Made by a program: the position numbers and the translations under genes. From Hexactinellida sp. DTS-2022 (Eukaryota; Porifera; Hexactinellida), in assembly GCA_028753945.1 (NCBI GenBank), contig JAPNXP010000002.1, positions 5,084,001 to 5,148,000 on the forward strand: a stretch of DNA of 64,000 nucleotides, read 5' to 3'. Shown here one piece after another: positions 6,166 to 63,717 of the stretch; the stretch's first letter is position 1; every line of letters begins with the position of its first letter. The notes under the pieces are model-generated. The model was not told the DNA's origin, searched no databases, and worked only from the letters and a program-made list of their open reading frames with translations.

Positions 6166-6169
6166 TTAA

Positions 6170-6867
6170 GGTTCAGGTATACTCTACAAAATCCCAAATT
6201 TCGATAAAATCCCAAATATTGTAAATCTCGTTTTTATTGCATTTTCGGATTGTATTGACACCAATGTGTACTCTCAATAGATTTCTAAGAGAAATTCCTA
6301 TTATTCTTCCAGTTTGACACACTTTGGTCACCTCAATCTAGGTATTATTGATGTAAATTATTTTTTCAAAAGCCTCTATCTCAAAACCAACATTTTCAGT
6401 ATTGGGTAATAGGTCATTTTGTCAATTTTGGTCGTGGAATCAAAAGCTCAACGGTTTCGGATAGATCTCGTGAAGATAAAACTAATGAGTGCAGAGATTT
6501 ATTCTATTATGGATAGTTCATGTGCTTTTTGGATTTTGGATCAGGAAAATCTTCATTTGAAAGTCGACATCACATAAAAGTATTTGAAATCCAGAAAAAT
6601 CCAGATATTCACAATTCCTGCACTCATTAGTTTTATTACATCCAGCTAAACACATTCAATCAATAATATTATTGGTCTTGTAAATCTTTGCTGATTGATC
6701 TTCTATCCAATAGTGGTAAAATTAAAAAAAATATTTTTCCTCTCTTAGTTTATTTGCCAATATTATTGTATTTTTGGCATCCTGAGGATGAAGTAAACCC
6801 GCTGTAAAAAAATTAATTCATTCGGGTGAATAGTTATGGTAGAAGTACTCTAGAGGATACCTGAACC
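6170..6867 (+). mobile_element. MITE X1 (698 bp, TTAA-flanked, GG...CC ends)
   Basis: Ends are GGTTCAGGTATACTCTA on the left and the complementary TACCTGAACC on the right, each flanked by TTAA (6166-6169 and 6868-6871). The uninterrupted satellite monomer reads ACAATTTAACTAGC with TTAA once, so TTAA was duplicated on insertion. There is no coding capacity. Four other copies lie in this window (10068, 26056, 33214, 42302). TTAA duplication is known for piggyBac and Kolobok superfamilies. The GG start argues against classical piggyBac, whose ends start with CC. Confidence 0.9.
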
Positions 6868-6871
6868 TTAA

Positions 6872-9800
6872 CTAGCACTACGGCCAGTGATGGCGATTGT
6901 CCACTTAGTATATTGCTTATCGTATTCCACTTTGGTTTGAATCTAATACTACATATTTGTCTAATATACAACCACAATTTATCTATCTTACTGCCAAGGA
7001 GATTGGGAGACTGTCCACTTAGTATATTCCTTGTTCTAGTTCACTTTGATTTGACTATAATTGGGTGTATTTATGTAATATAGAACCACACTTCAACATG
7101 CACCACCGGCCCGTAAGAGGGGGATACTGGACAGTTGATAGATTGCAACCACAGTCCACTTTGGTTTAACTCTAATTATGATTCTTTATCTAATATAACC
7201 CCTCAATTTAACTAGCAAGACGAAGAGGGAGAGAGGGAGACTGTCCACTTAGTATATTGCCTTTCCTAGTCCACTTTGGTTTTACTCTAATTATGATTAT
7301 TTATCTAATATAAACCTAAAGTTTAACTAGCACTACGGCCAGTGAGAGATGGAGACCGTCCACTTAGTTTATTGGTTATCGTATCCCACTTTGGTTTGAA
7401 CCTAATATTGCATATTTGTCTATAAAACACACAATTTATCTATCCCTTACGGACAGGGAGAGAAGGAGACTGTCCACTTAGTATATTGCCTATCCTAGTA
7501 CACTTTGGTTTGACTCTAATTATGAACATTTCTCTAATATAACACCACAATTTATCTAGCCCTTACAGACAGGGAGAGAGGGAGACTCTCCACTTAGTAT
7601 ATTGCATCCTAGTCAACTTTGGTTTTACTCTAATTATGATTATTTATCTAATATAAACCCACAATTTAATTAACTAGCACTACTGCCAGTGGGAGTGGAG
7701 ACTGTCCACTTAGTATATTGCTTATCGTATTCCACTTTGGTTTGAACCTAATACTACATATTTGTCTAATATAAACACACAATTTATCTAGCCCTTACGG
7801 ACAGCGAGAGAAGGAGACTGTCCACTTAGTATATTGCCTGTCCTAGTCCACTTTGGTTTACTCTAATTATGATTATTTATCTAATATAAACCCACAATTT
7901 AACTAGCACTACGGCCAGTGATGGCGATTGTCCACTTAGTATATTGCTTATCGTATTCCACTTTGGTTTGAATCTAATTTTACATATTTGTCTAATATAT
8001 AACCACAATTTATCTATCTTACGGCCAAGGAAATTGGGAGACTGTCCACTTAGTATATTCCTTGTCCTAGTTCACTTTGGTTTGACTATAATTGGGTGTA
8101 TCTATGTAATATAGAACCACACTTCAACATGCACTTCCGGCCCGTAGGAGGGGGACACTGGACAGTTGATAGATTGCAACCACAGTCCACTTTGGTTTGA
8201 CGCTAATTATGATTGTTTATGTAATATAATCCCTCAATTTAATTAGCAAGACGAAGAGGGAGAGAGGGAGACTGTCCACTTAGTATATTGCCTGTCCTAG
8301 TCCACTTTGTTTTGAATCTAATACTGCATATTTGTCGAATATATCAACACACAATTTCATTACTCCTTACGAAGTGGGAGAGAGGGAGACTGTCCACTTT
8401 GTATATTGCCTGTCCTAGTCCACTTTGGTTTTACTCTAGTTATGATTATTTATCTAATATAAACCTAAAGTTTAACTAGCACTACGGCCAGTGAGAGATG
8501 GAGACCGTCCACTTAGTATATTGGTTATCGTATCCCACTTTGGTTTGAACCTAATATTGCATATTTGTCTAATAAAACACACAATTTATCTAGCCCTTAC
8601 GGACAGGGAGAGAAGGAGACTGTCCACTTAGTATATTGCCTATCCTAGTTCACTTTGGTTTGACTCTAATTATGAACATTTCTCTAATATAAACCACAAT
8701 TTATCTAGCCCTTACAGACAGGGAGAAAGGGAGACTCTCCACTTAGTATATTGCATCCTAGTCAACTTTGGTTTTACTCGAAATATGATTATTTATCTAA
8801 TATAAACCCACAATTTAACTAGCACTACTGCCAGTGGGAGTGGAGACTGTCCACTTAGTATATTGCTTATCGTATTCCACTTTGGTTTGAACCTAATACT
8901 GCATATTTGTCTAATATAAACACACAATTTATCTAGCCCTTACGGACAGCGAGAGAAGGAAACTGTCCACTTAGTATATTGCCTGTCCTAGTCCACTTTG
9001 GTTTTACTCTAATTATGATTATTTATCTAATATAAACCCACAATTTAACTAGCACTACGGCCAGTGATGGCGATTGTCCACTTAGTATATTGCTTATCGT
9101 ATTCCACTTTGGTTTGAATCTAATTTTACATATTTGTCTAATATATAACCACAATTTATCTATCTTACTGCCAAGGAGATTGGGAGACTGTCCACTTAGT
9201 ATATTCCTTGTCCTAGTTCACTTTGGTTTGACTATAATTGGGTGTATTTATGTAATATAGAACCACACTTCAACATGCACTTCCGGCCCGTAGGAGGGGG
9301 ACACTGGACAGTTGATAGATTGCAACCACAGTCCACTTTGGTTTGACTCTAATTATGATTGTTTATCTAATATAACCCCTCAATTTAACTAGCAAGACGA
9401 AGAGGGAGAGAGGGAGACTGTCCACTTAGTATATTGCCTGTCCTAGTCCACTTTGTTTTGAATCTAATACTGCATATTTGTCGAATATAAACACACAATT
9501 TCTCTAGTCATTACCTAGTGGGATAGTGGGAGACTGTCTACTTTGTATATTGGTTATCGTGTGCCACTTTGGTTTGAACCAAATACTGCATATTTGTCTA
9601 ATATAAACACATAATTTATCTAGCCCTTACGGACAAGGAGAGAAGGAGACTGTCCACTTAGTATATTGTCTGTCCTAGTCCACTTTGATTTGTCTCTAAT
9701 TATGATTATTTATCTAATATACACCCACAATTTAAATAGCACGACGAATAGGGAGAGAGGGAGACTGTTCACTTAGTATATTGCCTGTCCTAGTCGGCTT

Positions 9801-10063
9801 TGTTTTGAATCTAATACTACATATTTGTCTAATATATAACCACAATTTATCTATCTTACAGCGATGGAGATTGGGAGAATGTCCACTTAGTATATTGCTT
9901 GTCCTAGTCTGATTTGGTTTGACTATAATTACGTGTATTTATCTAATATAAACCCACAATTTAACTAGCACGACGAATAAGGAGAGAGGGAGACTGTTCA
10001 CTTAGTATATTGCCTGTCCTAGTCGGCTTTGTTTTGAATCTAATACTACATATTTGTCTTATA
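6872..10063. repeat. ~115-bp satellite array, segment 2, with higher-order repeat
   Basis: This continues the array after X1 with about 28 monomers. Landmarks recur at long spacing. TGATGGCGATTGTCC lies at 6889, 7919 and 9066, and CTAGCAAGACGAAGAGGG lies near 7211, 8241 and 9388. The spacings are 1,030 and 1,147 bp in both cases. The 117-bp difference is one extra monomer (CACACAATTTCATTACTCC type, about 8345-8460). So blocks of 9-10 distinct monomers have been duplicated as a unit. Confidence 0.93.
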
Positions 10064-10067
10064 TTAA

Positions 10068-10764
10068 GGTTCAGGTATCCTCTAGAGTAATTCTACCACA
10101 AGTATTTACCCGAATGAATTAATTTTTTACAGCGGATTTACTTCATCCTCAGGATGCCAAAAATACAATAATATTGGCAAATAAACTAATATAGGAAAAA
10201 ACTTTTTTTAAATTATACCATTTTTGCGGAATAGATCAATCAGAAAAGATATACAATACCAATAATATTATTGATAAAATGTGTTTAGCTGGATGTAATA
10301 TAACTTTTGAGTACAGGAATTGTGAATATCTACATTTTTCTGGATTTCAAATACTTTTATGTGATGTCGATTTTCAAATGAAGATTTTCTTGATCCAAAA
10401 TCCAAAAAACACATGAACTATTCATATTAGGGTAAATCGCAGTAATAGAAAGTTGTATCTTTACGAGATATCTCCGAAACCGTTGAGTTTTTGATTCTAC
10501 GACAAAAATTGACAAAATGACTTCTTCCGCAATTCTGAAAATGTTAGTTTTGAGATAGCGGCTTTTGAAAAAAAAATTACATCAATTATTCCTAAATTGA
10601 GGTGACCAAAGTGTGTCAAACTGGAAAAATAATAGGAATCTTTCTTAGAAATCTCTTGAGAGTACTCATTGGTATCAATACAATCCCAAAATGCAATAAA
10701 AGAGAAATAGACAATGATTTGGATTTTATCTAAATATTCGAAATTTGTAGAGTATACCTGAACC
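10068..10764 (-). mobile_element. MITE X2 (697 bp) inserted in the satellite
   Basis: Opposite orientation to X1. The ends GGTTCAGGTATCCTCTAGAG and ...GAGTATACCTGAACC are flanked by TTAA at 10064-10067 and 10765-10768. Outside sequence on both sides is satellite. An open frame on the minus strand inside (10497-10775) also appears in X5 but crosses the element end, so it is not a gene. Confidence 0.9.
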
Positions 10765-10768
10765 TTAA

Positions 10769-10903
10769 CACACAATTTATCTATTGAACGGGGATGGAGA
10801 TTGGGTGACTCTCCACTTAGTATATTGCTTGCCCTAGTCCACTTTGGTTTGACTATAATTAGGTGTATTTATGTAATATAGAACCACATTTCAACCTGCA
10901 CTT
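10769..10903. repeat. ~115-bp satellite array, segment 3
   Basis: About one monomer between X2 and Z1. It ends with CTGCACTT, which is continued at 12053 as CACTTCCGGCCCG after the Z1 insertion. Confidence 0.9.
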
Positions 10904-12052
10904 CACAGTGGCTTAACACATGGAAATAGGAAAATATTTGTATTTATCAAAATGCCTCTAAATGGTATTTTAATTGAAGTTAGATAGTATACTAACATTC
11001 ATTTGAAATTTCAATTGGTTTGAACACAAACTACGCCGATAAATAATTTTTGAATTATATCAAATGTATAGTTCCATTTGCGGTTTGCAGAATTCATAAA
11101 AATACAACATATTTCATTTAATTCTGAACTACATTGTATAAGGAATCGTGGTTATTTTGTATTCAAATATATACAAAATGAGTATGCTAAATATATATTT
11201 CTATACTAATTTACTGTAACACTGATGCATTATAAATTTAACAGGGGGTAAAAGCTCTTATGAACCAAAATTATTCGAACTTTCAAAATTAAAAATCTCA
11301 GGTAAGCGCAAAAAAAAGTACATCAAAAATCAAAGAGAAATTTTGACAGGCTTTAGATTAAAGTTGTAAGAATTAATTATGGAAATCTTAGCTTCCGAAA
11401 CAGTGCGCAACTTTGAATATTTTAGCGAATTCCATTGTCTCTTTGTGTTGCTAAGAAAATGTTAAAACTAATTATCGCTACTATTCAGTAGTATATCTTA
11501 TTGGTTACCCAAATGTATGGAAATTATTGTATATTAAGAACAACTGAGCACGTAAGGACAATTTCATCAATCAGAGCAGCGAACGATGAACTCATATTGG
11601 CTTTTTGATATTGAAGGCTGTTAGTTTTGCACAATTCGGAGGTTATTTAGTGTGATGCACAAATGACAGCTATGCTAGAAAAAGTCATCTAGGGTATTAT
11701 GAGTTCTAATACAAGTTATAATTACATTCAGAATCATCTACCCCCTTTACATGAGTGTACGAATCCTTATATCCCTTGGGAACTGGCCTTTTACGAAATA
11801 TTCCCCATGTTCAAGATATTTGAACAATAATCATGGGTGAGTATTAAAAGATTGTTAACAAACCAAAAAATTTGTGTTTCATTGATTTACAACAAATCGC
11901 CCAGAACTAAACTTAAAAGAGTGGATACATCATTTTTGATGAAGCCATTCAATTCGCAGCTATCAATAACCTATATGTCAATAATACTTCACTTTTGAGT
12001 AACTGCAACCCAAATGCCTATTTCCTATCAACTACAGTTTTAAGCCACTGTG
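10904..12052 (+). mobile_element. MITE Z1 (1,149 bp; CACAGTG ends, 5-bp target duplication CACTT)
   Basis: Termini are CACAGTGGCTTAACAC on the left and the complement of CACAGTGGCTTAAAAC on the right. CACTT is duplicated on both sides (10899-10903, 12053-12057). The native satellite monomer reads TGCACTTCCGG with CACTT once, so the 5-bp duplication is directly supported. A second, inverted copy lies at 26870-28019, very similar by eye over its whole length. There is no coding capacity. CACAGTG termini with 5-bp duplications are the arrangement seen in Transib and RAG-type elements. hAT-like relatives with 5-bp duplications are the main alternative. No RSS-like nonamer is visible 12 or 23 bp inside. 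Confidence 0.85.
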
Positions 12053-13309
12053 CACTTCCGGCCCGTAGGAATGGGATACTGGACAGTTGGTGTATTGCAA
12101 CCGCAGTCCACTTTGGTTTGACTATAATTATGAACATTTCTCTAATATAACACCACAATTTATCTAGCCCTCACAGACAGGGAGAGAGAGAGACTCTCCA
12201 CTTAGTATATTGCATGTCCTAGTCCACTTTGGTTTGACTCTAATTAGGATTATTTATCTAATATAAACCCACAATTTAACTTGCAAGACGAAGAGGGAGA
12301 CAGGGAGACTGTCCACTTAGTATATTGCCTGTCCTAGTCCACTTTGGTTTGACTCTAATGATGAATATTTATCTAATATAAACCCACAATTTAACTAACA
12401 CTACGGCCAGTGAGATATGGACTGTCCACTTAGTAGAATGGTTATCCTGCCCCCACTTTGGTTCGAACCTAATACTCCATATTTGTCTAATATAAAACAC
12501 AATTTATCTAGGCCTCACGGACAGGGAGAGAGGGAGACTGTCCAGTTAGTATATTGCCTGTCCTAATACACTTTGGTTTGACTCTAATTATGATTATTTC
12601 TCTAATATAAACCCACAATTTAACTAGCACGACGAACAGGGAGAGAGGGAGACTGTCCACTTCGTATATTTCCTGTCCTAGTCCACTTTGTTTTGAATCT
12701 AATACTCCATATTTCTCTAATATAACACCACAATTATCTAGCCCTTACAGACAGGGAGAGAGGGAGACTGTCCACTTAGTATATAGCCTGTCCTAGTCCA
12801 CTTTGATTTTAATCTAATACTCCATATTTCTCTAATATAACACCACAATTATCTAGCCCTTACAGACAGGGAGAGAGGGAGACTGTCCACTTAGTATATA
12901 GCCTGTCCTAGTCCACTTTGATTTTAATCTAATACTGCATATTTGTCGAATATCAACACACAATTTCATTAGTCCTTACGAAGTGGGAGAGAGGGAGACT
13001 GTCCACTTTGTATATTGCCTGTCCTAGTCCACTTTGGTTTTACTCTAATTATGATTATTTATCAAATATAAACCTAAAGTTTAACTAGCACTACGGCCAG
13101 TGAGAGATGGAGACTGTCCACTTAGTATATTGGTTATCGTGTCCCACTTTGGTTTGAACCTAATACTGCATATTTGTCTAATATAAACACACATTTTATC
13201 TATCTTACGGCCAAGGAGATTGGGAGAGTGTCCACTTAGTATATTGCTTGTCCTAGTTCACTTTGGTTTGACTATAATTGGGTGTATTTATGTAATATAG
13301 AACCACACT
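12053..13309. repeat. ~115-bp satellite array, segment 4
   Basis: About 11 monomers. Two adjacent monomers around 12715-12935 are almost identical to each other (CCATATTTCTCTAATATAAC followed by CACAATTATCTAGCCC), indicating a recent local duplication. Confidence 0.92.
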
Positions 13310-13313
13310 TCAA

Positions 13314-14051
13314 GGCTTCGCGTCCCCTTCGATAGGCTGCACGACCCCTAACAAAAAATTTCTGTTTATTATTGATTAATCTTATTCAACATATTAGCTA
13401 TATTATTGTAACAGAGAGCTTGTCTCTATCTATCCTACTTTTCTTATTTCAGCAATTATTGTGTAATTGGAACCAAAATGCTTCTATGAGAAAACAATAT
13501 TGAAATCAAATCAGTTGATTTTTATACATCGTAGCTCTATTTGTTGAAATGCGTTGATTTGAAGTCGATTTGAGCCTATACTAATTTAGTCCATATTAGT
13601 TTACATTGCGTGACAGACTTCGATTAGCGATATAATCTTTGAAACCAATAGGAATGCTCGAGTAATTTCGAAATGTCATGATAATCAAAAAATTCCTACT
13701 AGTCACTCCCGTAGTATTGAAAGTAAATATGAATTCAACTAAGGGAGTCTGTCACGCAATGTGAAATAGTATGGACTAAGTTAGTATAGGCTCAAATCAA
13801 CTTCAAATCAACGCATTTCAAAAAATAGTGCATTGATCTATACTATTCGCCTGATTTGAGTTCAATATTGTTTTCTCATAGAAGCCTTTTGGTTCCAATT
13901 ACACAATAATTGTTGAAATAAGAAAAGTAGGATAGCTAGAGACTAGCTCTCTGTTACAATAATATAGCTAATATGTTAAATTAGATTAAGCAATATTAAA
14001 CAGAATATTTTTGCTAGGGGTCCTATGCCAGAATCTCAGGGACGGGAAGCC
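13314..14051. mobile_element. Fold-back element W1 (738 bp, long inverted arms)
   Basis: Left end GGCTTCGCGTCC...ACCCCTAACAAAAAAT pairs with right end ...TTTTTGCTAGGGGTCC...GACGGGAAGCC. The complementarity continues for about 300 bp per arm, for example ATTGTGTAATTGGAACCAAA on the left and its near complement on the right. The flanks are TCAA and TTAG, probably a worn TTAA. It is related to W2 at 23961, which has exact TTAA flanks and a shared ACCCCTAA block. It is inserted in the satellite. Confidence 0.75.
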
Positions 14052-14055
14052 TTAG

Positions 14056-14787
14056 TATATTGCTTGTCCTAGTTCACTTTGGTTTGACTATAATTAGGTG
14101 TATTTATGTAATATAGAACCACACTTCAACATGCACTTCCGGCCCGTAGGAGGGGGATACTGGACAGTTGATAGATTGCAACCACAGTCGACTTTGGTTT
14201 GACTCTAATTATGAACATTTCTCTAATATAACACCACAATTTATCTAGCCCTTACAGACAGGGAGAGAGAGAGACTCTCCACTTAGTATATTGAAGGTCC
14301 TAGTCCACTTTGGTTTGATTCTAATTATGATTATTTATCTAATATAAACCCACAATTTAACTAGCACGACGAACAGGGAGAGAGGGAGACTGTCCACTTA
14401 GTACTATATTGCCTGTCCTAGTCCACTTTGTTTTGAATCTAATACTGCATATTTGTCGAATATGTACACACAATTTCTCTAGCCCTTACGGGTGGGAGAG
14501 AGGGAGACTGTCCACCTAGTATATTGCCTGTCCTAGTCCACTTTGGTTTGACTCCAATTATGATTATATATCTAATATAAACCCACAATTTAACTAGCAC
14601 TACGGCCAGTGATGGCGATTGTCCACTTAGTATATTGCTTATCGTGTCCCACTTTGGTTTGAATCTAATACTGGATATATTTGTCTAATATAAACACACA
14701 ATTTATCTAGCCCATACGGATAGGGAGAGAGGGAGACTCTCCACTTAGTATATTGCATGTCCTGGTCCACCTTGGTTTGACTCTAAT
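14056..14787. repeat. ~115-bp satellite array, last segment
   Basis: About six monomers follow W1. The array stops abruptly after GGTTTGACTCTAATC at about 14787 and gives way to unique AT-rich sequence. Confidence 0.92.
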
Positions 14788-19745: not shown

Positions 19746-20454
19746 GGCTCGACCCACACCTTCAGAGAAATTAAACCACTTCCAATTAATTAGGTTTTAT
19801 TGCTTATTTCGATAGGTCTATATGTTGTGTATATTCCCTGAAAATATAATCCAGAAATATTGAATACTTTAGGAGATATGGAACTGAAACCAAAAGATCG
19901 CAACATTAATGTCCGAATTTTCGAAATGTTTTCGAGAATCAAAACCTCTCCAACATGTACACGCGTGCAGAAAAAATCTAATAAGTTATTGATGATCTGA
20001 GAAAAATGCATTATTTATATAGTATTGTTACTCAACCTTCACCTAAAAACAAGGCTTCAAATACTTCAATAGAAGTGTTATAAGAATTTGAATCAAAAAA
20101 ATGCAAAATAATCATGAATCATTGCCTTGGTTTCACTATACTGACTACAAATTTTCTCGTAAGCATGAAATTGCAGAATATTTTAGGTGAAGGTGTAACA
20201 CTAGTATATGTATTGAATAAATAAAGCTTAATCAGCACTTGAACTAGTGTGGTTAGTTTGAAAAAATGCTTACCGTAAATTCAGTCATGTATAGGAATTT
20301 AATATTACGCATTATGGAACTATAATCAATCACTCGAGCGAATATTATTCGAATTCAATTTTGATTGCGGATTTATGTAGCTTATAGATATGGCTAAAAC
20401 TGATATAGGTTTGGATTTGAAGGGGACGTTATTAGTGAAGGTGTGGGTCGAGCC
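19746..20454 (+). mobile_element. MITE V1 (709 bp, TTAA-flanked, GGCTCGACC ends)
   Basis: The ends GGCTCGACCCACACCTTC and GAAGGTGTGGGTCGAGCC are perfect complements, with TTAA outside (19742-19745, 20455-20458). The interior matches V2 at 50697-52144 in reverse orientation, for example GTTATAAGAATTTGAAT, GAACTATAATCAATCACTCG and GCGAATATTATTCGAA. It is inserted just three bases beyond the stop codon of the Myb-like ORF of the Harbinger element. No gene inside. Confidence 0.88.
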
Positions 20455-20902: not shown

Positions 20903-21641
20903 GTATACAAGCGCGCTTCGCTTGCTTTCGCTGCGCGGCTGCAGAAAGCACTCCTCTGGTGCCTCATATATCCCAACCAACAAATAACAGAAGTAACGTT
21001 TGTAAATTCCTTATAACGTCTACATCTAAACAACAAATATATACACATGGGTTGTTAACAACATCATATTTGGAATCAGCATACTTAATTACTCCATATA
21101 TAGTCGTTGGAAGTAAGCGGCCACGACCCTTTAAAACATGTAAATTACAAATAATTGATTGGATTTATTATTTTTCTCTCGCACAATTAAATTGCAGTTT
21201 CAGATTGGCATTTTATAATGCACACTTAACAAATGTTAGAGACACTAAATCAATTTATACTAATTGAATGCTAGCTGCTAATCCATACTGTGCCACGCTC
21301 GAATTTAATTGGCTAAAGTTTTTGTTACCTTTTGAGATTGAAGATGTGAATATTTTTCTTAGATATTAGAACTTGTTTCTAGATACGTAGTTACCCACCT
21401 TCCTGCCAAAATTCAAGTCTGTAGCTCTTACCCAGTTTCTCAATCAATTCCGAACAAACAAACAACAAACAAAAAAACAAACCATTTAGATTTAATATAT
21501 AAGATAGAAACTTGATAATTTCATATTATAATCGACTCTCGTTGATACGAATTTTGTGAGTGGGGGGGGGGGGGAGGGGGGGCATGCCCCCCCTGGTAAT
21601 TTGCCGCCCCCCCTAGATGAAAAATCCTGGCGACGTCCCTG
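20706..21641 (+). mobile_element. hAT MITE R1 (936 bp) inserted in the Myb-like ORF
   Basis: Ends CAGGGACGTCGCCA and TGGCGACGTCCCTG, with TATACTAT / TATACTAC as an 8-bp target duplication (20698-20705, 21642-21649; 7 of 8). Next to each end is a G-run/C-run block around GGGGGGCATGCCCCCC-type palindromes. Inside are an ATT microsatellite, CGCGCTTCGCTTGCTTTCGC, ATATTTGGAATCAGCATAC, and a SINE-like tail near 21440-21510. A truncated inverted copy is R2 (45665-46310). Long frames through the ATT run (poly-Leu, poly-Tyr, poly-Asn) are artefacts. Confidence 0.88.
20855..20901. repeat. (ATT)n microsatellite, about 15 units
   Basis: Uninterrupted ATT repeat inside R1. The copy in R2 has only about six AAT units (46146-46165), so the run has changed length since the copies separated. 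Confidence 0.95.
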
Positions 21642-22300
21642 TATACTACCCTTAATTCCACTAAATGCTGGTGTACCCTCTAGCATATCTGTTACCCTCT
21701 CCGTTGAAGTGGTTGACAAGTCTTTGTCAGCAGAAAGAATAAGTATATCCTCGTCATTTATCTCTCCAACTGCATTTGGTCCTCCTCCTGTCTGTCTTGA
21801 TTTTCGACGACTACTATCCACATGAGACTTTGCAGCTCCCTTGAGATTATTCCATTTTTTCTTCGAGTCTTTAACACCTCTATTGTTGCCATGGATCGAG
21901 TTAACCTTTCCTACCATATCACTCCACAGTGATTTCTTCTTCCTGTTGAGGTCAGCGCAGTGCCCAGTACCTCTGAGTAAAAGATCAGCGGATTGAATTG
22001 CGTCAATGGGTGTATACTCTTCCTCTTTGGACCAGTTACCTTTTCGAGGTTTTTCCATTTTCTTTAGCTGAAGTTCAAATATTCACTTTAATTTATACTT
22101 TGCAATAACAACAGCCGATGCAGTTGTACTCGACGATATTTCTCAAGCACGCAAATCGCAGGTAATTCAATGATAATATTATTTTTAAAGTTAAAAGAAT
22201 AAAGCAAGCTAATACAATAGCATTCCATACATATTATGCTATGCTATTACATCCCATGTTGCATTACATCCCTAACTAAATTCAAATGCGTTTAGACCTA

Positions 22301-22382
22301 GAGTCACCTCGGGACAGGGTTAATTTGACCCAATTAAACGGTGAAATCTATTAACAGTGGCTCTATTAAGCGGATAATACTG
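22301..22382. mobile_element. Palindromic mini-MITE K2 between the two Harbinger ORFs
   Basis: GAGTCACCTCGGGACAGGG, then GACCCAATTAAACGG, then GTGGCTCTATTAAGCGG and ACTG, with TA on both sides. Same family as 17452, 24682 and about 40991. Confidence 0.65.
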
Positions 22383-22529
22383 TATTAACAATATTATATG
22401 TCAATATACAATACTGTTATTGAAATATTAGCTGAAATAATGAATGGAGAATTGATCTCTATAATGTTTGGCAGCCATATGGCCAGTATCCTCAACAGGG
22501 TATATTATAAGCTCATTTTTTAATTCCTA

Positions 22530-22668
22530 GCCCATTTTTTTATTCCTATTTTCATTTTTTACTCCCTTGAATAGTGAGTTTTTATCGTCTGATATCCATT
22601 TCAAGATTCCATTTCTACCGAAAATCCATTTTTTTATTCCACGAAAACAATAAAAAACATTTTTTTAT
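22530..22668. repeat. Short tandem repeat of CATTTTTTTATTCC
   Basis: About five irregular copies of CATTTTTTTATTCC or close variants lie just downstream of the Harbinger transposase stop on the minus strand. It may be part of the transposon's intergenic region. Confidence 0.6.
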
Positions 22669-22674
22669 TCCTTA

Positions 22675-23960: not shown

Positions 23961-24663
23961 GGCCTCCGACCTTCTGGAATATGGCCACAGGACCCCTAAT
24001 TTTTTATGTTAAAATCCATTAGATTATTGTATTTTGTTATATATTCAAAACAAAGTTTGACTCTCTAGCTCATATATTTTCCAAGTTACAGCAAGGTATG
24101 TGAATTTGGAACTAAATGACGAATCATTGTATTTCACATTATTTGAGAATTTTCTATTCACTTTCATTTCAGGAAAATTGGGCATTTATCAATGCGACGT
24201 TAGTACCAATATAGTTAGTACTAACTAGCTAGCTATACACTACAGAGCGTTTTAATTGATATCTTGTTTACTTTCAATACTACACCAATGACTTTGTGGA
24301 ATTTTTTTCAGAGGAGATAAATTCCAACTTATCATTCCGACAGTGTTGAAAGTAAACACGATATCGATTAAAACGCTCTATTACGTTCAGGTAGCTAGTT
24401 AGTACTAACTATATAGGCACTAACATCGCATTGATAACTGCCCAATTTTCCAGCAAATGAAAGTGAATAGAAAATTCTCAATTAATGTTAAATACAATGA
24501 TTCGTCATTTAGTTCCAAATTCACATACCTTGCTGTAACTTGGAAACTATATGAGCTAGAGAGTCAAACTTTGTTTTGATTATATAGCAAAATACAATAA
24601 TCTAATGGATTTTAACATAAAAAATTAGGGGTCCTGTGGCCATATTCCAGAAGGTCGGAGGCC
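23961..24663. mobile_element. Fold-back element W2 (703 bp, TTAA-flanked)
   Basis: Nearly perfect palindrome. GGCCTCCGACCTTCTGGAAT at the left and its complement at the right are flanked by TTAA (23957-23960, 24664-24667). The arms run about 270 bp each and include GACCCCTAATTTTTTATG, CAAAGTTTGACTCTCTAGCT and GTTAGTACTAACTAGCTAGC. The short loop contains TATCATTCCGACAGTG. No gene. A transcript through it would form a long hairpin RNA. Confidence 0.9.
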
Positions 24664-26055: not shown

Positions 26056-26751
26056 GGTTCAGGAATACTCTACAAATTTCGAATATTTAGATAAAATCCA
26101 AATCATTGTCTATTTCTCTTTTATTGCATTTTGGGATTGTATTGATACCAATGAGTACTCTCAAGAGATTTCTAAGAAAGATTCCTTTTATTTTTCCAGT
26201 TTGACACACTTTGGTCACCTCAATTTAGGAATAATTGCTGTAAATTTTTTTTTCAAAAGCCGCTATCTAAAAACTAACATTTTCAGAATTGCGGAAGAAG
26301 TCATTTTGTCAATTTTTGTCGTAGAATCAAAAACTCAACGGTTTCGGAGATATCTCGTAAAGATACAACTTTCTATTAATGCGATTTACCCTAATATGAA
26401 TAGTTCATCTGTTTTTTGGATTTTGGATAAGGAAAATCTTCATTTGAAAATCGACATCACATAATAGTATTTGAAATCTAGAAAAATGTAGATATTCACA
26501 ATTCCTGTACTCAAAAGTTATATTACATCCAGCTAAACACATTTTATCATTAATATTCTTGGTATTGTTTATCTTTTCTGATTGATCTATTCCGCAAAAA
26601 TGGTAAATTAAAAATTGATTTTACCTCTCTTAGTATATTTGCCAATATTATTGTATTTTTGGCATCCTGAGGATGAAGTAATCCGCTGTAAAAAATTTAA
26701 TTCATTCGGGTAAATACTTTTGGTAGAAGTGCTCTAGAGTATACCTGAACC
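26056..26751 (+). mobile_element. MITE X3 (696 bp)
   Basis: GGTTCAGGAATACTCTACAA...CTAGAGTATACCTGAACC with TTAA outside (26052-26055, 26752-26755). Same orientation as X1. An 87-codon frame inside (26201-26464) overlaps a homologous frame in X5 on the other strand, but stop positions are not conserved across copies. Confidence 0.9.
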
Positions 26752-33127: not shown

Positions 33128-33799
33128 TACACCAACCAGCTAAAAGTATATGAACAACATAAATTCTAATGCAGACACAATATTCGACTGGGAACTTATT
33201 AATGGCAGTTTAAGGTTCAGGTATACTCTAGAGCACTTCTACCAAAACTATTTACCCGAATTAATTAAATTTTTTACAGCGGATTTACTTCATCTTCTAA
33301 CCGGCAAAAATGCAATAATATTCGAACTAGGTAACTCAGTGAAAAATATTTTTTCTAGAAAATCGTATTTTGCGGAACGGATAGGTTTTTTCCTGCTAAT
33401 GATTAGGAGTAGATTGTTGCTGCATTGCATTAAGAAACTCCTAAACTATCATATGAGTGCAAGAATTCTTTTAATCACGTATGAGTCAAATTTTTCATCA
33501 ATAAATGTGGACATCACTTTTTTCATCATCAATAAATTAAATAAAAATAAAAATAAAAGTTACAAATGAAATCGCTACACTCATATGATAGAACTAATTG
33601 AGATCTGTCCAAAACCGTTGAGATTTTGTTTCTAGGTGGTATATGAGTCATAATATGACTTCCGCAATGGCAATAATTGTGTTTGGAGATAGCGAGGTTT
33701 GAAAAAAAGTGTCCCCTATGGCAGTGGCTTAGGTAGAGGACACTAAAAAGTCTGTATCATTGAGAGTTTTCAATATTCTTCCATAATATTTGAAATTAA

Positions 33800-35030
33800 G
33801 GATGCTGAACGCGAGTTAACATTAGCTGTAATGGGTAGTTTCCATAGTTTTGTCCAAACAATGGTAAATCACTATAAACATAAGATCCTTTATCCTAACT
33901 AAGATATTTAGCACTTGAGATCATTTTTTGGAATTATATTTTTGTCAGGGAGGGTGAAAATATTTTTTTGGCTTCTCATACCCGTAATACAATAGAATCA
34001 AAACTTCTCGGCATTATCCAGAGTGTTATATTGTGGCGCAAGTTCTGAAAAGTTTTGTACATATTCCCCACAACTAGGAATGAAAAAATGACTAGCTTTG
34101 GTAGTGTAGAGTTCCTACTTTCTATCCTGTGGGTGCTTGTCCCTTGTTATCTCAAAAATCGGTCAAAATTAGACAATTTTACACCAAATTGGTTCAAAGA
34201 ACTCTTAGTTCTTGTACAATCGCTCCCAAGCTAGTCATTTTTATTGACAATAGTGTATACAAGTATATCTGAGTTTTTTTAGTCATTCCGCTAAATATTT
34301 TTTCTCAACTAATGCCGAGAAGGTCGAAAAAATGAGTTTTGAGATACAAGCGTTCAAAGTTTACCAGGTTATTCCCACTAATAATAGATACATTTCAATT
34401 GGTGTTTCATCCGGGGATGGAAGGAGTATGTAAGCTTATATTCGTACGATAAGCTTTACATGTATTCAGTCATTGTTCGTAACTAAATGACTTGATATTT
34501 ATCCATTTATGCAAGTCCACTTTATTTTGGGACACCAGCTGGAAAAGGAATTTGATGTAATTTGCTGTGAGAATTGTTCGAAATTCAACAGAAAGTTCAT
34601 TCCAGCAATGTTTTGAACTACTATGTACATGCACCATGTATATTTGTGGCACCTTTCAAATGAATTGCTTTATATCCCAGAATAATTAAAAAGATTGTCA
34701 CCATAGAGATTCGAACCCATAACCTCAAGTATACATTCTCCATATGCTTTCCACCGTGCAGTTGATACATATTAGTTATATATGAACTGATATTAGTATC
34801 AAAATGCACATAAATAACCATCAATGGTGATAAATGTGAGGAATGTTCACATAATCACCGATGTCATCAAAAATGACGTCACTAATAATGCACTTTTGAG
34901 CAAAAATATTCTAGATTTTTAAAAATTTGCACTTCGAACAGAATTCCAGGTTATTTTTGCATGTTATTTCACAATAATCGACACTTAAATTTTTGAAGTT
35001 AAATACCGGATAATTTGGCGTCAAGCATCC
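33800..35030. mobile_element. Element N (1,231 bp, TTAA-flanked), nested in X4
   Basis: GGATGCTGAACGCGAG at the left and the complement of GGATGCTTGACGCC at the right, with TTAA on each side (33796-33799, 35031-35034). Only one copy is visible in the window. No transposase. It carries a tRNA-like SINE head. Confidence 0.7.
34690..34775 (-). repeat. tRNA-derived SINE head
   Basis: On the minus strand, ACTGCACGGTGGAAAGCATA is followed about 30 bases later by ATGGGTTCGAATCTC. This is close to the RNA polymerase III B-box consensus GGTTCNANNCC and at tRNA-like spacing from an A-box-like segment. A folded tRNA cloverleaf is not evident, so I call a SINE or tRNA pseudogene rather than a tRNA gene. 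Confidence 0.55.
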
Positions 35031-36031
35031 TTAAGATGCGATATATGCTGTTCTATCCAAATATAAGATAAAACCTATATGTGGCCATGTCCCGAAATTA
35101 TCAAGTTTCCATGGTATACTGCAACCGGCAACCAAAACCAGAACCCCAATATTTCTTTCAAAACTCGAAGTGAGTCAAACTGGAGAAATAATTGGAATTT
35201 TTCTTTGAAATTTCGTCAAAGTCCACATGGGTATCCACACAATCCGAAAATGCAATAAAAACGAGATTTACCATATTTTGGGGTTTATCGAAATTTTGGG
35301 ATTTTGTAGAGTATACCTGAACCTTAAACCACTCTAAAATGACTATAAATATCTTTCTACAGTTATAACTTTAAAAATATTGTGATTTCATGTCATTTTA
35401 GGCAATATCCATTTAGTGGCATAAGTGTCCCTCGAACATGCCACTTGTGGCACAAATGGGAATGTAACTGTATCTCAGTAGAGAACATTCGTAATTATTC
35501 GAAATGAATCCCCTAGAATAATTCGTCCATGTGGAATTCAAAACTGCAATCAGAAATTATACTTTCTGAATTGCATGAATAATGATCAGATATAATATAT
35601 TCAATTATCTAATTAGATACTAGTTAATAAGTTTAACACCTCCATAAAATCTAAATACAAAAGTTTTGCTAATGTATTTTACGTAACACATCGTCTAATG
35701 TAAACATCCATGTTGAAGCCCCTACAAATGTAATTATGCTGCTATAAGCTTTAATGCAGGAATACAAATTATTGCTGTTCAAATACTTTTGGCCTGTATT
35801 GTATAGTACTATCAGTATAATAAAGTGTAGTTACAATATGGAGAAGATGGCAGATTTACATCAAAAACCGTTAATAAAACGTAATTGGTTAGCGACCTGT
35901 TCATTTTAAGGAGATAGCCCCTTGATTTAAAATAGTTAATTGATTTCTAGTTTGATAGCGTTTTTGGACTGTACTATGTAGTAGTAGTTTACCTGGAAAA
36001 TAGAATTGATTTAGCTTGTATTACTCTAGAG

Positions 36032-36356
36032 CAGTGGTTCCCAATCTGGGAGGAATTCCTCCCTGGGGAGGAATTTGGCCATCCTCGGGGAGGAATTCCG
36101 CATAGGTATACTTAGATATATTAATGAAATTCTATGGATTACTTTGTCTCACTGAATGATTTAATCACTACGTAATTAAATATTCCTTGCATTGATTATA
36201 TTGACAGTTATCATTGACAGTATTATTTATATTTAACTTAGTTTTTCAGTTATTTCCAAACCAAAATTCTACATTGTAATCCTGGGTGGAATTTTAGCAA
36301 AATATTGCTTAGGGGAGTAATATCCTGACTTTTTTGGAAAAGGTTGGGAACCACTG
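36032..36356. mobile_element. hAT MITE (325 bp) with exact 8-bp duplication CTCTAGAG
   Basis: CAGTGGTTCCCAATCTGGG at the left and GGTTGGGAACCACTG at the right. CTCTAGAG is duplicated exactly (36024-36031, 36357-36364). The interior begins with GGAGGAATT repeats. The same type of end appears at 53469. Confidence 0.92.
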
Positions 36357-36365
36357 CTCTAGAGT

Positions 36366-36945
36366 TACTTACTATAATCTAATTTATCCTATGTGAACCC
36401 ATATAGCCGTTGCCAAGTGATATTAATACAACAATAAATAGTCAACTTAGTTTGAGGTTGTATTTCAACTCTAATAGTATATGATTGAAAGATACTGGGA
36501 AGTTTTTGTTGAATTTCTACTTAATTAATTTTTACGTAAATCTTTGCTGAATATGTGGATAATTTGTCTATAATTATGATAACTAAATTATTATAAATTT
36601 CAATATCTTTAAAATGTGAATTCTGAAATCAGTATCTTACTCTACATACGATACGGAACAACTTTGCAAATGAATTTGAGTCTCTATCTTTTATATATTT
36701 TGAGATGACACTTGGCAAAGACCATCCTTTGAGGGAGAATTTTTTTTTGGACAAGATGAAGATACTGAACCACTTCTATGGACTTTTGTCACCCAAAAAT
36801 TGACTTACGTCACCCAAAGAATTATCTAAATGATATTTACTTCATATTCGGGAGGTTTACACATGTATGTATAATTGCACAGATATAACCGTTATTTGAA
36901 CAATTTTTTATTTTTGGTCCGAATTGAAGGGGCAATTTCCTTAAA
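36366..36945. other. AT-rich sequence, nothing recognised
   Basis: No gene, repeat or RNA feature found. Confidence 0.4.
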
Positions 36946-42301: not shown

Positions 42302-42989
42302 GGTTCAGGTATCCTCTAGAGTACTTCTACCATAAGTATCTACCCGAATGAATAAATTTTTTTACTGCAGTATTACTTCATCCTCAGGATGCCAAAAATA
42401 CAATCATATTGGCAAATAAACTAATAGAGGAAAAAACTTTTACCATTTTTGCGGAATAGATCAATGAGAAAAGATAAACAATACCAAGAATATTATTGAT
42501 AAAATGTGTTTAGCTGGATGTAATATAACTTTTGAGTACAGGAATTGAGAATATCTACATTTTTCTGGATTTCAAATACTTATATGTGATGTCGATTTTC
42601 AAATGAAGATTTCCTTATCCAAAATCCAAAAAACAGATGAACTATTCATATTAGGGTTAATCGCAGCACTGAAAAGTTGTATCTTTACGAGATCTCCCCG
42701 AAACCATTGAGTTTTTGATTCTACGACCAAAATTGACAAAATGACTTCTTCCGCAATTCTGAAAATCTTAGTTATGAGATAGCGGCTTTTGAAAAAAAAA
42801 TTTACAGCAATTATTCCTAAATTGAGGTGACCTAAGTGAGTCAAACTGGAAAAATAATAGGAATCTTTCTTAGAAATCTCTTGAGAGTAATCATTGGTAT
42901 TAATACAATCCCAAAATGTAATAAAAGAGAAATTGACAATGATTTGGATTTTATCTAAATATTCGAAATTTGTAGAGTATACCTGAACC
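42302..42989 (-). mobile_element. MITE X5 (688 bp)
   Basis: GGTTCAGGTATCCTCTAGAG...GAGTATACCTGAACC with TTAA at 42298-42301 and 42990-42993. Same orientation as X2. Confidence 0.9.
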
Positions 42990-50696: not shown

Positions 50697-52144
50697 GGCT
50701 CGAAGCGCAATTTGAAATTTTTTGTTCCATTCAAATCCATAGTTATATTAGTAAAAGCCTACACTATACTGATAACAAATCCACTATCAGAATTGATTTC
50801 GAATAATATTCGCTCGAGTGATTGATTATAGTTCCATATTGCGTAATATTAAATTCCTATACCTGACTGAAATATGTGCACAATTGTAACAAATAAACCA
50901 CAGAAGATTAAGCGCTGATCCAGCTTTATTTCTTCAATAGATATACTAGTGTTTAATCTAACGCTATTTAGTGTCAAATTAATGCATACTCTATGAATTA
51001 TTAGTCTTGAAATTGAAACCTAGTCATTTACTCATGGTTATTATGCATTTTTTTTATTCAAATTCTTATAACAATTCTTTTATTGTTTTGAAACGTTGTT
51101 TAGAGGCTTAGGTTAACTACAAGTATATATTGAATATTGCTAAATCCAGAAAACATGTATTACTTACTGGAATTTTTTTATAGACTTGCGCATGTTGCCA
51201 TCACTTTGAATTTTAAAAAATTACATTACTTTTAAAATCTTTACATTAAGGTTAAATTACGGCAGATTCACCCAAAAAACACATGAATTTAGTTTTGAAG
51301 GTGGGAGTTTGAATTTCACATATATGATGGAAGACATTATAGCTATATCGAAACTGAAAACGAAATCTGATTATCTTCCATAAATTCGAAATTATTGGGC
51401 TTGCAGTATTATGCTAATACAAAAGTCCCATAGGGGGATTTTTTCAGACTCCACCTGATAAGTGTGTGGTTTGCAAGATCATTATTTGCTAAAGACCTGT
51501 ACTGTGTGATCTATCAGATAGATCATCGTTATGGGCGGTTGGTGAGTGGTTTAGAATTTTGATAAGATCTAAATAAAAAATATTGCGACCTTTTGGAACC
51601 AAAAAATGAATAAAAAGGTCATCTTTTCATGCGAAATTTGATAAAATGCTTGATAAAAAAAATTCCAAGTCATAATTCAAAAATGTAAACCGTCTACCTA
51701 CTCCGTACGCTTATAATATTTAAATATTGATTCTGAAAGCAAACATTGATGGCCGCATTGCCAAATTACCGCATAATATCTACCACCACTTTTGGAAATC
51801 GCCCTATGGGAGATTTGTATTAGCCAAATTTTGAAACCGACAAAAAATAAAAAGTATAATAGATAGGGACATTTTCTTTTTGGTTTATTGATTTGTATCG
51901 GATAGGTATATATTTCTCACAATTACAGATTAATACAAGAACTTTCATTCACGTGGGGTAATTTAACCTTAATATGGAGAAGAATGTACTTCAGGTGTTG
52001 ATATTTCCAAAAGTATTTGGAATTTCTGAATGAAACTTTCAGTGAATACTCTAGACATATAGAGCTTGCTAAATATGCAATTAAACAAAAATCTAAGTTT
52101 TATAACATTAAATGGAATTTCATTTTCAAATTGCGGGTCGAGCC
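50697..52144 (-). mobile_element. MITE V2 (1,448 bp including nested Y1)
   Basis: GGCTCGAAGCGCAATTTGAA at the left, TTCAAATTGCGGGTCGAGCC at the right, TTAA outside (50693-50696, 52145-52148). The left part matches V1 in reverse. Element Y1 occupies 51250-51968. Confidence 0.87.
51250..51968 (+). mobile_element. MITE Y1 (719 bp), nested in V2
   Basis: GGTTAAATTACGGCAGATTC at the left, GTGGGGTAATTTAACC at the right, TTAA outside (51246-51249, 51969-51972). Four copies of almost equal length occur in the window (51250, 53636, 57609, 62883). Confidence 0.92.
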
Positions 52145-53468: not shown

Positions 53469-54527
53469 CAGTGGTTCCCAAACATTTTGAAAATAATGCC
53501 ATTTTGGTCCCCATAGTCATTTGGGAACGTCTTTCGGTCCCCCATGAAATAATATACAAAATTGCTCAACTTGTAATTTAAATAGTTTTGAAAAAACTAT
53601 ACTAAATTTAGACAGAAAAAGCCAAACTATGTTAAGGTTAAATTACGGCAGATTCATGTAAAAAAACACATAAATTTCGTTTTGAAGTAAGATGTTTAAT
53701 TTTCACATATATAATAGAAGACATTATAGCTATATCGAAACTGAAAACGAAATCGAATTATTTTGAATAAATTCGATTTTATGGGGCGTGCAGTTTTATG
53801 GTAATACAAAAGTCCCATAGGGGGATTTCTTCAGACTCCACCTGATAAGTGTGTCGATCTCAAGATCATTATTAGCTAAAGACATATTATGTGCGATATA
53901 TCACATAGATCATCGTTATATGCTGTAGGTGACTGGTTTAGAATTTTGATTTGACCTAAATAAAAAAAGTTGCGACCTTTTGAACTAAAGAAATCATTAA
54001 AAAGGTCATGTTTTTTATGAGATATTTGATAAAATGTTTGAAAAATAATTTCAGAGTCATAATTCAAAAATGTAAACCGACTACCAACTCCGTACGCTTA
54101 TAATCTTTCAATATTGATTCTGATAACAAACATTGATGGCCGCATTGCCAAATTACACTATAATATCGACCACCACTTTTTGAAATCGCCCTATGGGAGA
54201 TTTGTATTAGCCAAATATTGAAACCGACAAAAAATAAAAAGTATAATATATTGAGACATTTTCTTTTTTGTTTATTGCTTTGTATCGTACCTTGATCTAT
54301 TTCTAACAATTACAGATTAATACAAGAGATTTCATTCCCGTGGGGTAATTTAACCTTAAACTACATTTTAAACCTGTATTACAAAATCTTTGCTTACAAG
54401 AAATGATTATTAATACAAAATTTGCAAAATATCTCACTATAAAAATTGTATTAATTAACACTCGCGGTCCTACAAAAGGTGCCTCGCGGACCCCAAAGGG
54501 ACCGTGGGCCCAGTTTGGGAACCCCTG
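53469..54527. mobile_element. hAT MITE (1,059 bp including nested Y2)
   Basis: CAGTGGTTCCCAAACATTTT at the left, CCAGTTTGGGAACCCCTG at the right. Flanks CTGTAGAC / CTATATAC (6 of 8) are a worn 8-bp duplication. Without Y2 it is about 335 bp, close to the 325-bp relative at 36032. Confidence 0.8.
53636..54355 (+). mobile_element. MITE Y2 (720 bp), nested in the hAT MITE
   Basis: GGTTAAATTACGGCAGATTC...GTGGGGTAATTTAACC with TTAA at 53632-53635 and 54356-54359. Confidence 0.92.
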
Positions 54528-56895: not shown

Positions 56896-56960
56896 AGTAG
56901 TGCCCCAAATCCTGCCTCTATTAATGTTATTCCTTTTTTTAGAGTTTGAGTTGTGTGTAG

Positions 56961-57604: not shown

Positions 57605-57608
57605 TTAA

Positions 57609-58327
57609 GGTTAAATTACGGCAGATTCGGGCAAAAAAACACACAAATTTCGTTTTGAAGTTAGGTGTTTGATTTTCACATATATGTTAGAAGACATTAT
57701 AGGTAGATCCATTCTGGAGACGAAATTACATTATCTTCTATAATCTCGATTTTATGGGCCGTGCAGTTTTATGCTAATACAAAAGTACCCTAGGGGGATT
57801 TCTTAGAACTCCACTTGATAGAAAAGTGGGTTTGGGAATCAATATTTGTTATAGACATATTCTGAGCTATGTATCACATAGATCATCGTTATGGGCGGTT
57901 GGTGACTGGTTCAGAATTTTGATTTGACCTATTTCAAAAAAATTGCGACCTTTTGAAGGCAAAAAAATGAATAAAATGTCACCTTTATATGCGATATTTT
58001 ATGAAATGTTTGAAAAAATTAATTTGGAGTCTTAATTCAGAAATGTCAACCGTCTACCAACTCAGTACGCATATAATCTTTCAATATTGATTCTGATAAC
58101 AAACATTGATGGCCGCATTGCCCAAACACCGCATAATATCTACCACTACTTTTGGAAATCGCCCTATGAGAGATTTGTATAAGCCAAATTTTGAAACCGA
58201 CAAAAAATAAAAGTATAATGGATAGAGACATTTTCTTTTCGCTTTATTGCATTGTATAGTACAGGGATATATTTCTCACAATTACAGATTGATACAAGAA
58301 ATTTCATTCACCTGGGATAATTTAACC
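57609..58327 (+). mobile_element. MITE Y3 (719 bp)
   Basis: GGTTAAATTACGGCAGATTC...CTGGGATAATTTAACC, TTAA at 57605-57608 and 58328-58331. The most diverged of the four copies. Immediately followed by O1. Confidence 0.9.
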
Positions 58328-58333
58328 TTAATA

Positions 58334-58897: not shown

Positions 58898-58899
58898 TA

Positions 58900-61247: not shown

Positions 61248-61992
61248 AATAAAATATATCGAAAATATAAATGGAATGTTGACACATTCCTCGGTTGTGA
61301 GGAAATGTATATTTCCTAGAATGAGCCCTAACTCTAAAACTATAAATGTTATGTTTACTAGACTAGTGCTAATCTGTCCGCAAAAGGTAACTTCCTATTC
61401 ATAGATAGTACATTTTATTTGCCTAACTTTAATACTTTTGAGTTTATGAGCTTATACCATATACGGAATACGAGTTAATTATCTCATAAAATCAAAAAAT
61501 ATTAAATTTAGGCAAATAAAATGTACTATCTATGAATAGGAAGTTACCTATTGCGGACAGATTTGCACTAGACTAGTTTACATAACATTTATAGTTTTGG
61601 AGTTAGGGCTCATTTAGGAAATATACATTTTCCACACAACCGAGGAATGTGTCAACATTCCATTTATAATTTCGATATATTTTATTTAACTAGATCTGGG
61701 TATCACTATGTACCAATGTTGAACATTTATATATGGTTTATCTAAGTATAAACAGGCTTCAAAAACATGATAATTCGCGAGAAAATTGACGATTACGCCA
61801 TCAGATGATGACATATTACAATTTTGAAAGGTGCTATGTATACCTTGATATCATGTTCGGATGTTCCCATATAGTTACAAGTTATATTTCAGGTCTACCA
61901 TTGCTAATAATCGAGATAAAAAAGTACCCTCTATTCGAACTCATCCTTGGTCCAATTTTTTTAAGTCGTGAATTGGCCTTATATAACGAAGG
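61248..61992. mobile_element. Palindromic element S2, truncated at the left
   Basis: Starts inside the arm (AAATATATCGAAAATATAAAT-like sequence, as in S1 near 44910) and ends with GGCCTTATATAACGAAGG. The central palindrome is intact: CCTATTCATAGATAGTACAT and its complement lie on each side of about 61450. Confidence 0.8.
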
Positions 61993-62800
61993 TCATGGTT
62001 CTACATATTATATACAAAGAACTACAGGGCAAGCTATTTTCCTGAAAATCACATCGGCAGTCAACGGTTAAATGTTTGAAATTCATATGATTAGGTTGTA
62101 AATAACCGCAATATACTTTCTTTTTTCGAGACCATTCTTCAACACTTTCCTCTTCCAAACTATTTCTTACTCTTTTAGGACCTTTAAATACCTTATTCGC
62201 TCGCGGGTGAAAGGCAAATTGGAATGCTGATAACCTACTTATTATACCAGGATATAGCAATTGTATCAAATCACCTGGCCTCAAATTAGTTTTGGATTCC
62301 AAAATATTTAACAATACGCTTCCAATTCTCCACAATAGCGTTGCTAAAGATGCTAGTCTTGTTCTTAACCGATATCCTAATAGGTCTGTTGTATCGTATT
62401 ATGTGGCGCTATCGTATATTGATGCGCTGTATGATACAATACTATAAACCATGGATATGCTATTACAAATAATACAGTGTATTTTGAGGCGCTTAGTTCT
62501 AACTTCCGGACACTTACAGCTGCATATTTTAGACTTCTCTACCAGGATTATGATTATATAACAAAGGTGTTTAGACCCGGTATAAATGACCGGTGCCACG
62601 TGGTTTAATGTTCTTTTCCCGAATCTCAGACTGATTTTGTGACGTTTTGTACTTTCCTGACAAGAATATTCATTATAATCTTTTAGAAATTTTTTTGATT
62701 ACTTTTTATGTGCTTCCAGTCATGCTGATAAATAAATTGGAGTGTTCTGATCAACTTTTTAGAGACGTTCTATAGAAACTGGCCATATTTAACTCCCTGA
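61993..62800. other. AT-rich sequence, one unrecognised 118-codon frame
   Basis: The minus-strand frame 61979-62335 is basic and has no family I recognise. Since it runs into the tip of S2 and has no splice or codon evidence, I do not call it a gene. Confidence 0.35.
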
Positions 62801-62804
62801 CTCC

Positions 62805-62878
62805 TTAACGGAATTAATGGGCTTGAAAGGAATTTGTCGACTTAACGGGATGAATGGACTTGAACGGGACCAATGGAC
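62805..62878 (+). repeat. Degenerate ~20-bp repeat AATGGACTTGAACGGGACC
   Basis: Units such as TTAATGGGCTTGAAAGG, GATGAATGGACTTGAACGGG and ACCAATGGACTTAA. The series continues after Y4 (TTTGAACCGGTCCAATGGAC, 63622), so Y4 split it at a TTAA. Confidence 0.7.
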
Positions 62879-62882
62879 TTAA

Positions 62883-63602
62883 GGTTAAATTACCCCACGT
62901 GAATGAAAGTTCTTGTATTAATCTGTAATTGTGAGAAATATATACCTATACGATACAAATCAATAAACCAAAAAGAAAATGTCCCTATCTATTATACTTT
63001 TTATTTTTTGTCGGTTTCAAAATTTGGCTAATACAAATCTCCCATAGGGCGATTTCCAAAAGTGGTGGTCAATATTATGCGGTAATTTGGCAATGCAATT
63101 ATCAATGTTTGTCATCAGAATCAATATTTAAAGATTATAAGCGTACGGAGTAGGTAGACGGTTTACATTTTTGAATTATGACTTGGAATTTTTTTTATCA
63201 AGCATTTTATCAAATTTCGCATGAAAAGATGACCTTTTTATTCATTTTTTGGTTTCAAAAGGTCGAAATATTTTTTATTTAGATCTTATCAAAATTCTAA
63301 ACCACTCACCAACCGCCCATAACGATGATCTTTCTGATAGATCACACAGTACAGGTCTTTAGCAAATAATGATCTTGCAAACTACACACTTATCAGGTGG
63401 AGTCGCAAAAAATCCCCCTATGGGACTTTTGTATTAGCATAATACTGCAAGCCCAATAATTTCGAATTTATAGAAGATAATTAGATTTCGTTTTCAGTTT
63501 CGATATAGCTATAATCTCTTCCATCATATATGTGAAATTCAAACTCCCACCTTCAAAACTAAATTCATGTGTTTTTTTGGGTGAATCTGCCGTAATTTAA
63601 CC
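62883..63602 (-). mobile_element. MITE Y4 (720 bp), inverted
   Basis: GGTTAAATTACCCCACGTGA...GAATCTGCCGTAATTTAACC, TTAA at 62879-62882 and 63603-63606. Close to Y1 along its length. Confidence 0.92.
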
Positions 63603-63717
63603 TTAAGGGGATTATGAGATTTGAACCGGTCCAATGGACTTAAATCGCTTCAAGCATGGTAAGCTGCTATTAAAGGGAAAAAAGTGACAGAAATTTTACT
63701 AAAGGGACCATACGGAC

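Follow-up and report, generated by a model that had tools for sequence, protein, structure and literature searches.

Several families of miniature inverted-repeat transposable elements (MITEs) crowd a 64,000-nucleotide stretch of a glass sponge genome (Hexactinellida sp. DTS-2022; contig JAPNXP010000002.1, here C11, positions 5084001-5148000; "the window"), raising the question of which transposase moves them. Fourteen elements of the families X, Y, V, W and N had been noted there, and the whole 112.4-Mb assembly (18 contigs, designated C; loci read in detail are designated L) was searched for their partners. Very probably, the families are non-autonomous cut-and-paste elements of the Kolobok superfamily, moved by transposases of the PF20700 type, each family with its own or a closely related enzyme. 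The N family is a short version of a Kolobok transposon residing elsewhere in the genome, V probably has a PF20700 partner of its own, and we infer that other members of this superfamily mobilize X, Y, W and the two further families P and Q. A guess from sequence has thus been turned into an assignment to a named superfamily, for which at least one partner element is known.

PF20700 transposases linked to the N and, probably, the V family

According to PMC9587614, Kolobok elements are characterized by TTAA duplications and 5'-RR...YY-3' termini, and the GG...CC termini present in all MITE families examined are of this form. The PF20700 profile has 116 matches genome-wide (best 5.4e-64; 114 of 213 candidates scored), several of them in open frames of more than 800 aa. 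As the first-pass annotation had supposed, no transposase for the families resides in the window: the genome-wide profile searches placed neither PF20700 nor piggyBac matches there. Kolobok fragments occur within 10 kb of the window on both sides.

PMC9587614 also gives as Kolobok signatures a CxxH motif, a zinc finger preceding the last E and, in some lineages, a CCHC after the first D. All three were recognized in the PF20700 proteins of L060, L064 and L070, to which the motif reading applies: (i) ECLTH as the CxxH motif, (ii) a zinc finger DHAAGNHSGCP...WC (IHSGC in L064) preceding NESLH with the putative last E, and (iii) a CCHC following the putative first D. In this they resemble KolobokE, KolobokD, KolobokP and Kolobok5 as described there; in contrast to these, none of the four proteins scanned here (two of them partial) matched an exonuclease, helicase or homing endonuclease, a PHD-like finger being present instead. 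The latter lies at the C-terminus of the full-length proteins of L060 and L064, below the Pfam cut-off, while the match in the fragment of L020 exceeds it. The literature search yielded no paper on a Kolobok transposase with a PHD finger. The N and V partner proteins discussed below were located by their matches.

Use of TTAA by PF20700 elements is most evident from a family whose ends start with CG. One member, a TTAA-flanked element of 1663 bp (L020:160-1822, window coordinates 64160-65822), begins 160 bp past the right edge of the window, carries TTAA-CGCTACCTACGACTACT at both ends and holds a PF20700-type C-terminal fragment. Genome-wide, the CG-family end has 175 matches at up to 2 mismatches (control, 1). 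Of the 19 convergent pairs formed by the 45 exact ends (TTAACGCTACCTACGACTACT), 12 span 1670-1675 bp, one spans 2374 bp and six span 3407-3600 bp. Each of the six long pairs (TTAA-CGCTACCTACG ends) brackets PF20700 matches, as compared with a mean of 0.08 and a maximum of 2 in 2000 trials of random placement; therefore, PF20700 elements of this genome use TTAA. Together with the N element on C15 described next, these six constitute the full-length PF20700 elements with TTAA flanks, the exact end patterns including TTAA in each case.

Ends were compared with transposase genes for X, Y, V, N (100 ends each of 639, 558, 200 and 167, respectively), W (all 49) and P (all 51) as well as for some of the CG-family ends, whereas Q was read in the window. 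Among the N ends listed, five pairs are longer than 2 kb, one of which (3920 bp, C15:234855-238774) brackets a PF20700 match. This match is split over two frames, hence the C15 copy is broken. Another PF20700 gene (C11:5499861) starts 1196 bp from an N end located at C11:5502121, a spacing identical to that on C15; one N end is known at this locus, the one-mismatch N ends listed on C11 reaching C11:4837441. With respect to V, two ends (C11:5460324 and C11:9802389) lie at an equal distance (1649 bp) from one and the same part of a PF20700-type protein match; with the matches in register, 1 of 1000 random runs gave such equal spacing. Another raw pair of V loci (C11:5456717 with C11:8421071; 8 of 3000 random runs) disappeared when placed in register (1559 vs 1820) and was discarded.

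The initial preference for a Kolobok-like over a piggyBac transposase thus stands for N, whose ends bracket PF20700, and probably for V, with no piggyBac match bracketed, and extends to X, Y and W by inference. The proposed genome search for longer elements with the family ends recovered the N bracket and the one-sided V link, and none for X, Y and W among the ends listed. In the mechanism envisaged, a PF20700-type DDE transposase encoded by an autonomous element at another genomic location would bind the terminal repeats of a family, presumably excise the short element and integrate it into a TTAA site, so that TTAA flanks it on either side.

Elements of the window and their target site

Boundaries and flanks of the 14 noted elements were read directly, base by base. 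They are listed below together with Q, an additional TTAA-flanked element of the same design that had escaped the first-pass annotation (window coordinates).

X1, 6170..6867: 698 bp, TTAA on both sides, within a 115-bp tandem array
X2, 10068..10764: 697 bp, TTAA on both sides
X3, 26056..26751: 696 bp, TTAA on both sides
X4, 33214..35323: 2110 bp including the nested N, TTAA on both sides
X5, 42302..42989: 688 bp, TTAA on both sides
N, 33800..35030: 1231 bp, nested in X4, TTAA on both sides; family with PF20700 partner on C15
Y1, 51250..51968: 719 bp, nested in V2, TTAA on both sides
Y2, 53636..54355: 720 bp, TTAA on both sides
Y3, 57609..58327: 719 bp, TTAA on both sides
Y4, 62883..63602: 720 bp, TTAA on both sides, 97% identity to Y1
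V1, 19746..20454: 709 bp, TTAA on both sides
V2, 50697..52144: 1448 bp including Y1 (725 bp without it), TTAA on both sides
W1, 13314..14051: 738-bp foldback, flanks TCAA/TTAG
W2, 23961..24663: 703-bp foldback, outer arms 95% complementary, TTAA on both sides
Q, 35910..36940: 1031 bp, TTAA on both sides, ends GGAGATAGCCCC / GGAAATTGCCCC

The reading confirmed the earlier count: exact TTAA on both flanks and GG...CC ends in 13 of the 14 noted elements, W1 with TCAA/TTAG being the exception. P, a further GG family (end GGCCCCACTATACT), occurs outside the window and was first met in L009. X1, X2 and W1 are hosted by a long 115-bp minisatellite array (window ~3831-14700).

Empty sites were sought with 16 joined-flank queries, three of which gave a clean result (X1, N and P) and eight no match across the junction. 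Joining the flanks gave matches with one TTAA each in further units of the 115-bp array (X1), in X copies at 99% (N) and in L055 at 97% over 144 bases (P). A single TTAA also occupies the Y1 site in V1, as aligned with the Y1-free V2 (identity in 515 of 753 columns), and is present at a weak empty site of Y4 (79% match over 80 bases). No usable empty site was obtained with the joined flanks of Y3 and of a Y copy in L047, and the evidence for V, W and Q consists of their flanks. Empty sites lacking TTAA had been named beforehand as one outcome that would refute the initial reading; the clean ones (X1, N, Y1, P) each hold a single TTAA. The target duplication would accordingly comprise the 4 bp TTAA, which is indistinguishable from a 2-bp TA duplication with AGG...CCT ends because TTAA is palindromic.

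As a chance control, 84 kb (the window and 10 kb on each side) were scanned for inverted ends matching at 13 or more of 16 positions beside identical 4-mers. TTAA accompanied 25 pairs, 18 of them starting with GG (four of these 18 connect ends of two different copies); AATT also accompanied 25 pairs, without a dominant start. Counts for palindromic 4-mers are inflated, since such 4-mers recur within foldbacks. The scan misses some elements, as N falls below its threshold and the low-complexity filter removes the 1663-bp element at 64160.

All families examined genome-wide are far more abundant than their controls. The X end (TTAAGGTTCAGG) has 639 exact matches vs 25 for the reversed pattern, the Y end (a degenerate 25-mer) 558 (control, 0), the V end at up to 1 mismatch 200 (control, 1), the N end at up to 1 mismatch 167 (control, 0), the W end at up to 3 mismatches 49 (control, 0) and the P end at up to 1 mismatch 51 (control, 0). 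Copies are homogeneous within X and N. For an 875-bp X form, to which X4 without N is 98.7% identical, 41 of the 50 matches listed (40 of 582 candidates scored) are near full length with 97-100% identity, the query itself being among the 41. The 100 N ends listed form 37 pairs, 32 of which span 1224-1241 bp including TTAA.

One enzyme or several, and rival superfamilies

A number of observations weigh against the assignment to Kolobok. The clearest PF20700 family starts with CG and thereby violates the RR terminus rule, and the MITE interiors have no protein similarity to the transposases read here. Ends were paired with genes by coordinates only. For N, bracketing alone is weak evidence, at least one bracket arising in 113 of 2000 random placements, wherefore the argument for its partner is carried by the repeated 1196-bp spacing; measured to a later protein anchor, the spacing is 2132 bp on C11 and 2119 bp on C15, and an indel disrupting the frame of the C15 copy would account for the difference of 13 bp. 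The V link concerns one end, the 5' V end not being seen among the ends listed, and duplication of a single segment may have produced both V loci. For X, Y, W and P, the search revealed no partner, since none of their ends listed faces inward within 4 kb of a PF20700 or piggyBac match; in the case of X and Y this absence is weak, because 100 of 639 and 100 of 558 ends were examined. As to the target, a relative of the X4 site in L044 (78% similar) has CTAA at the place of X4, and array units are seen at the place of X2 without TTAA.

The first-pass annotation had proposed that one enzyme mobilizes all five families, and TTAA-GG is indeed common to them, as is the contig on which their listed ends are commonest (C11; the lists are partial for several families). 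That a single Kolobok-type transposase moves all GG families, needing little past TTAA and GG, nevertheless appears distinctly improbable. The N-type and V-type genes are only 34% and 28% identical, respectively, to the 297-aa fragment of the CG family, with which, rather than with each other, they were compared. The suggested alignment of the families for common sub-terminal motifs revealed nothing past GG above shuffled expectation: positions 3-18 of the ends of eight families give 137 summed matches vs a shuffled mean of 139.9, and the best pair (X-P, 10 of 16 matches) is reached in 514 of 3000 shuffles. Moreover, no inward-facing PF20700 match lies within 4 kb of the ends listed for X (100), Y (100) and W (49). 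Most likely, each family is served by a transposase of its own or by a close relative of it; given the lack of a shared motif, the common GG is best read as a trait of the superfamily. The TTAA-GG design therefore suggests a shared superfamily, not a shared enzyme.

The absence of PF20700 matches near the X, Y and W ends listed would also agree with their belonging to another TTAA superfamily. Sola2 and Sola3 are TTAA-specific, but N and probably V, which are of the same TTAA-GG design, link to PF20700, rendering this alternative unlikely. The piggyBac transposases share the TTAA target and are present with 57 PF13843 matches genome-wide, several with long open frames. Yet no convergent pair of the X, Y, W, V, N, P and CG ends listed brackets any of the 57, the four proximities of V ends to piggyBac matches (at two loci) are unequally spaced, and Kolobok RR...YY termini are distinct from those of piggyBac according to PMC9587614, so that mobilization by piggyBac is very unlikely. 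Least credible, to the point of near-dismissal, is a misreading of the 3-bp TWA targets of PIF/Harbinger elements as TTAA. A Harbinger gene pair does lie between two X ends in L009, and Harbinger-like fragments occur in the window at ~21492-23353; the L009 Harbinger, however, is an insertion within X, bounded by GGGCC ends of its own and a CTG duplication, and the empty sites hold TTAA.

Returning to Kolobok as the preferred assignment, the T2-MITE families of Xenopus, which according to PMC6004289 have a TTAA target and AGGRR ends and are tied to Kolobok, are a direct precedent. As there, many MITE subfamilies with TTAA target and purine-rich start coexist with autonomous Kolobok elements in the same genome. 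Differences to the T2-MITEs are the ends (AGGRR vs GG) and the THAP domain contained in most Xenopus Kolobok transposases, for which the two full-length PF20700 proteins scanned here gave no match, having instead the PHD-like finger below cut-off. These precedents come from literature searches on Kolobok, Sola2 and PF20700, none of them aimed at the present family ends. The families are an additional, well-populated case of something already known; they document that several TTAA Kolobok-type families with unlike ends coexist in a compact genome, and the set may be useful for asking what a Kolobok transposase recognizes past TTAA and the first two bases.

CG-family fragments, composite elements and other transposons

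Matches to the 297-aa fragment inside CG-family elements are 96-100% identical, apart from one copy with 86%. The whole C-terminal frame of 297 aa, with the PHD finger at its end, has 15 genome matches of 99-100% identity, 14 of them without stop, while two further matches are broken. Short P-element copies in flies dampen the full enzyme. One may speculate that the 1.67-kb derivatives analogously form a truncated transposase dampening the full enzyme amid coexisting TTAA Kolobok families with different ends, a rather unlikely scenario; intact frames would also be explained by recent spread alone.

A 6.4-kb pair of X ends on C6 (L009) was considered as an autonomous X element and rejected, being an X copy into which a Harbinger and a P-family element have inserted. 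This Harbinger (L009:1928-7496) comprises transposase and Myb-like genes, is flanked by a CTG duplication and was inserted six bases from the X end. Two long pairs of P ends (C7:2090939-2094576 and C18:4313953-4317386) contain neither PF20700 nor piggyBac matches; the former shows ATAA at its left and TTAT at its right side. Inserts are present at CTCTAGAG in the X copies of 973 and 1372 bp and probably also in the 862-bp copy; we take these short inserts to be hAT-like. Different short elements at or near CTCTAGAG of the X terminal repeats are clear in L011 and L012 (8-bp duplication) and probable in L018. No insert explaining the length of a 1038-bp X copy was identified.

THAP proteins were also considered as Kolobok candidates (1052 candidates genome-wide, 150 scored). 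The four scanned match THAP and TNP-like RNase H domains, and inverted repeats with CATAG are present at five of six THAP loci fetched (none at L055); for these reasons they look P-element-like (open frames of 878-976 aa) and were dismissed.

At the piggyBac loci read, no piggyBac element ends were found. In L051 (C11:10778000-10787999), two piggyBac genes occupy inverted arms that are identical and measure at least 3537 bp. Further close, oppositely oriented piggyBac matches are located at C11:4928457/4938567, C11:5004528/5008793, C11:8869725/8875130 and C5:2680771/2691172; these inverted pairs represent either palindromes or an assembly artefact. MITEs and PF20700 matches (63 of 116 on C11) are concentrated at ~2.7-11 Mb of C11, a region that includes the window.

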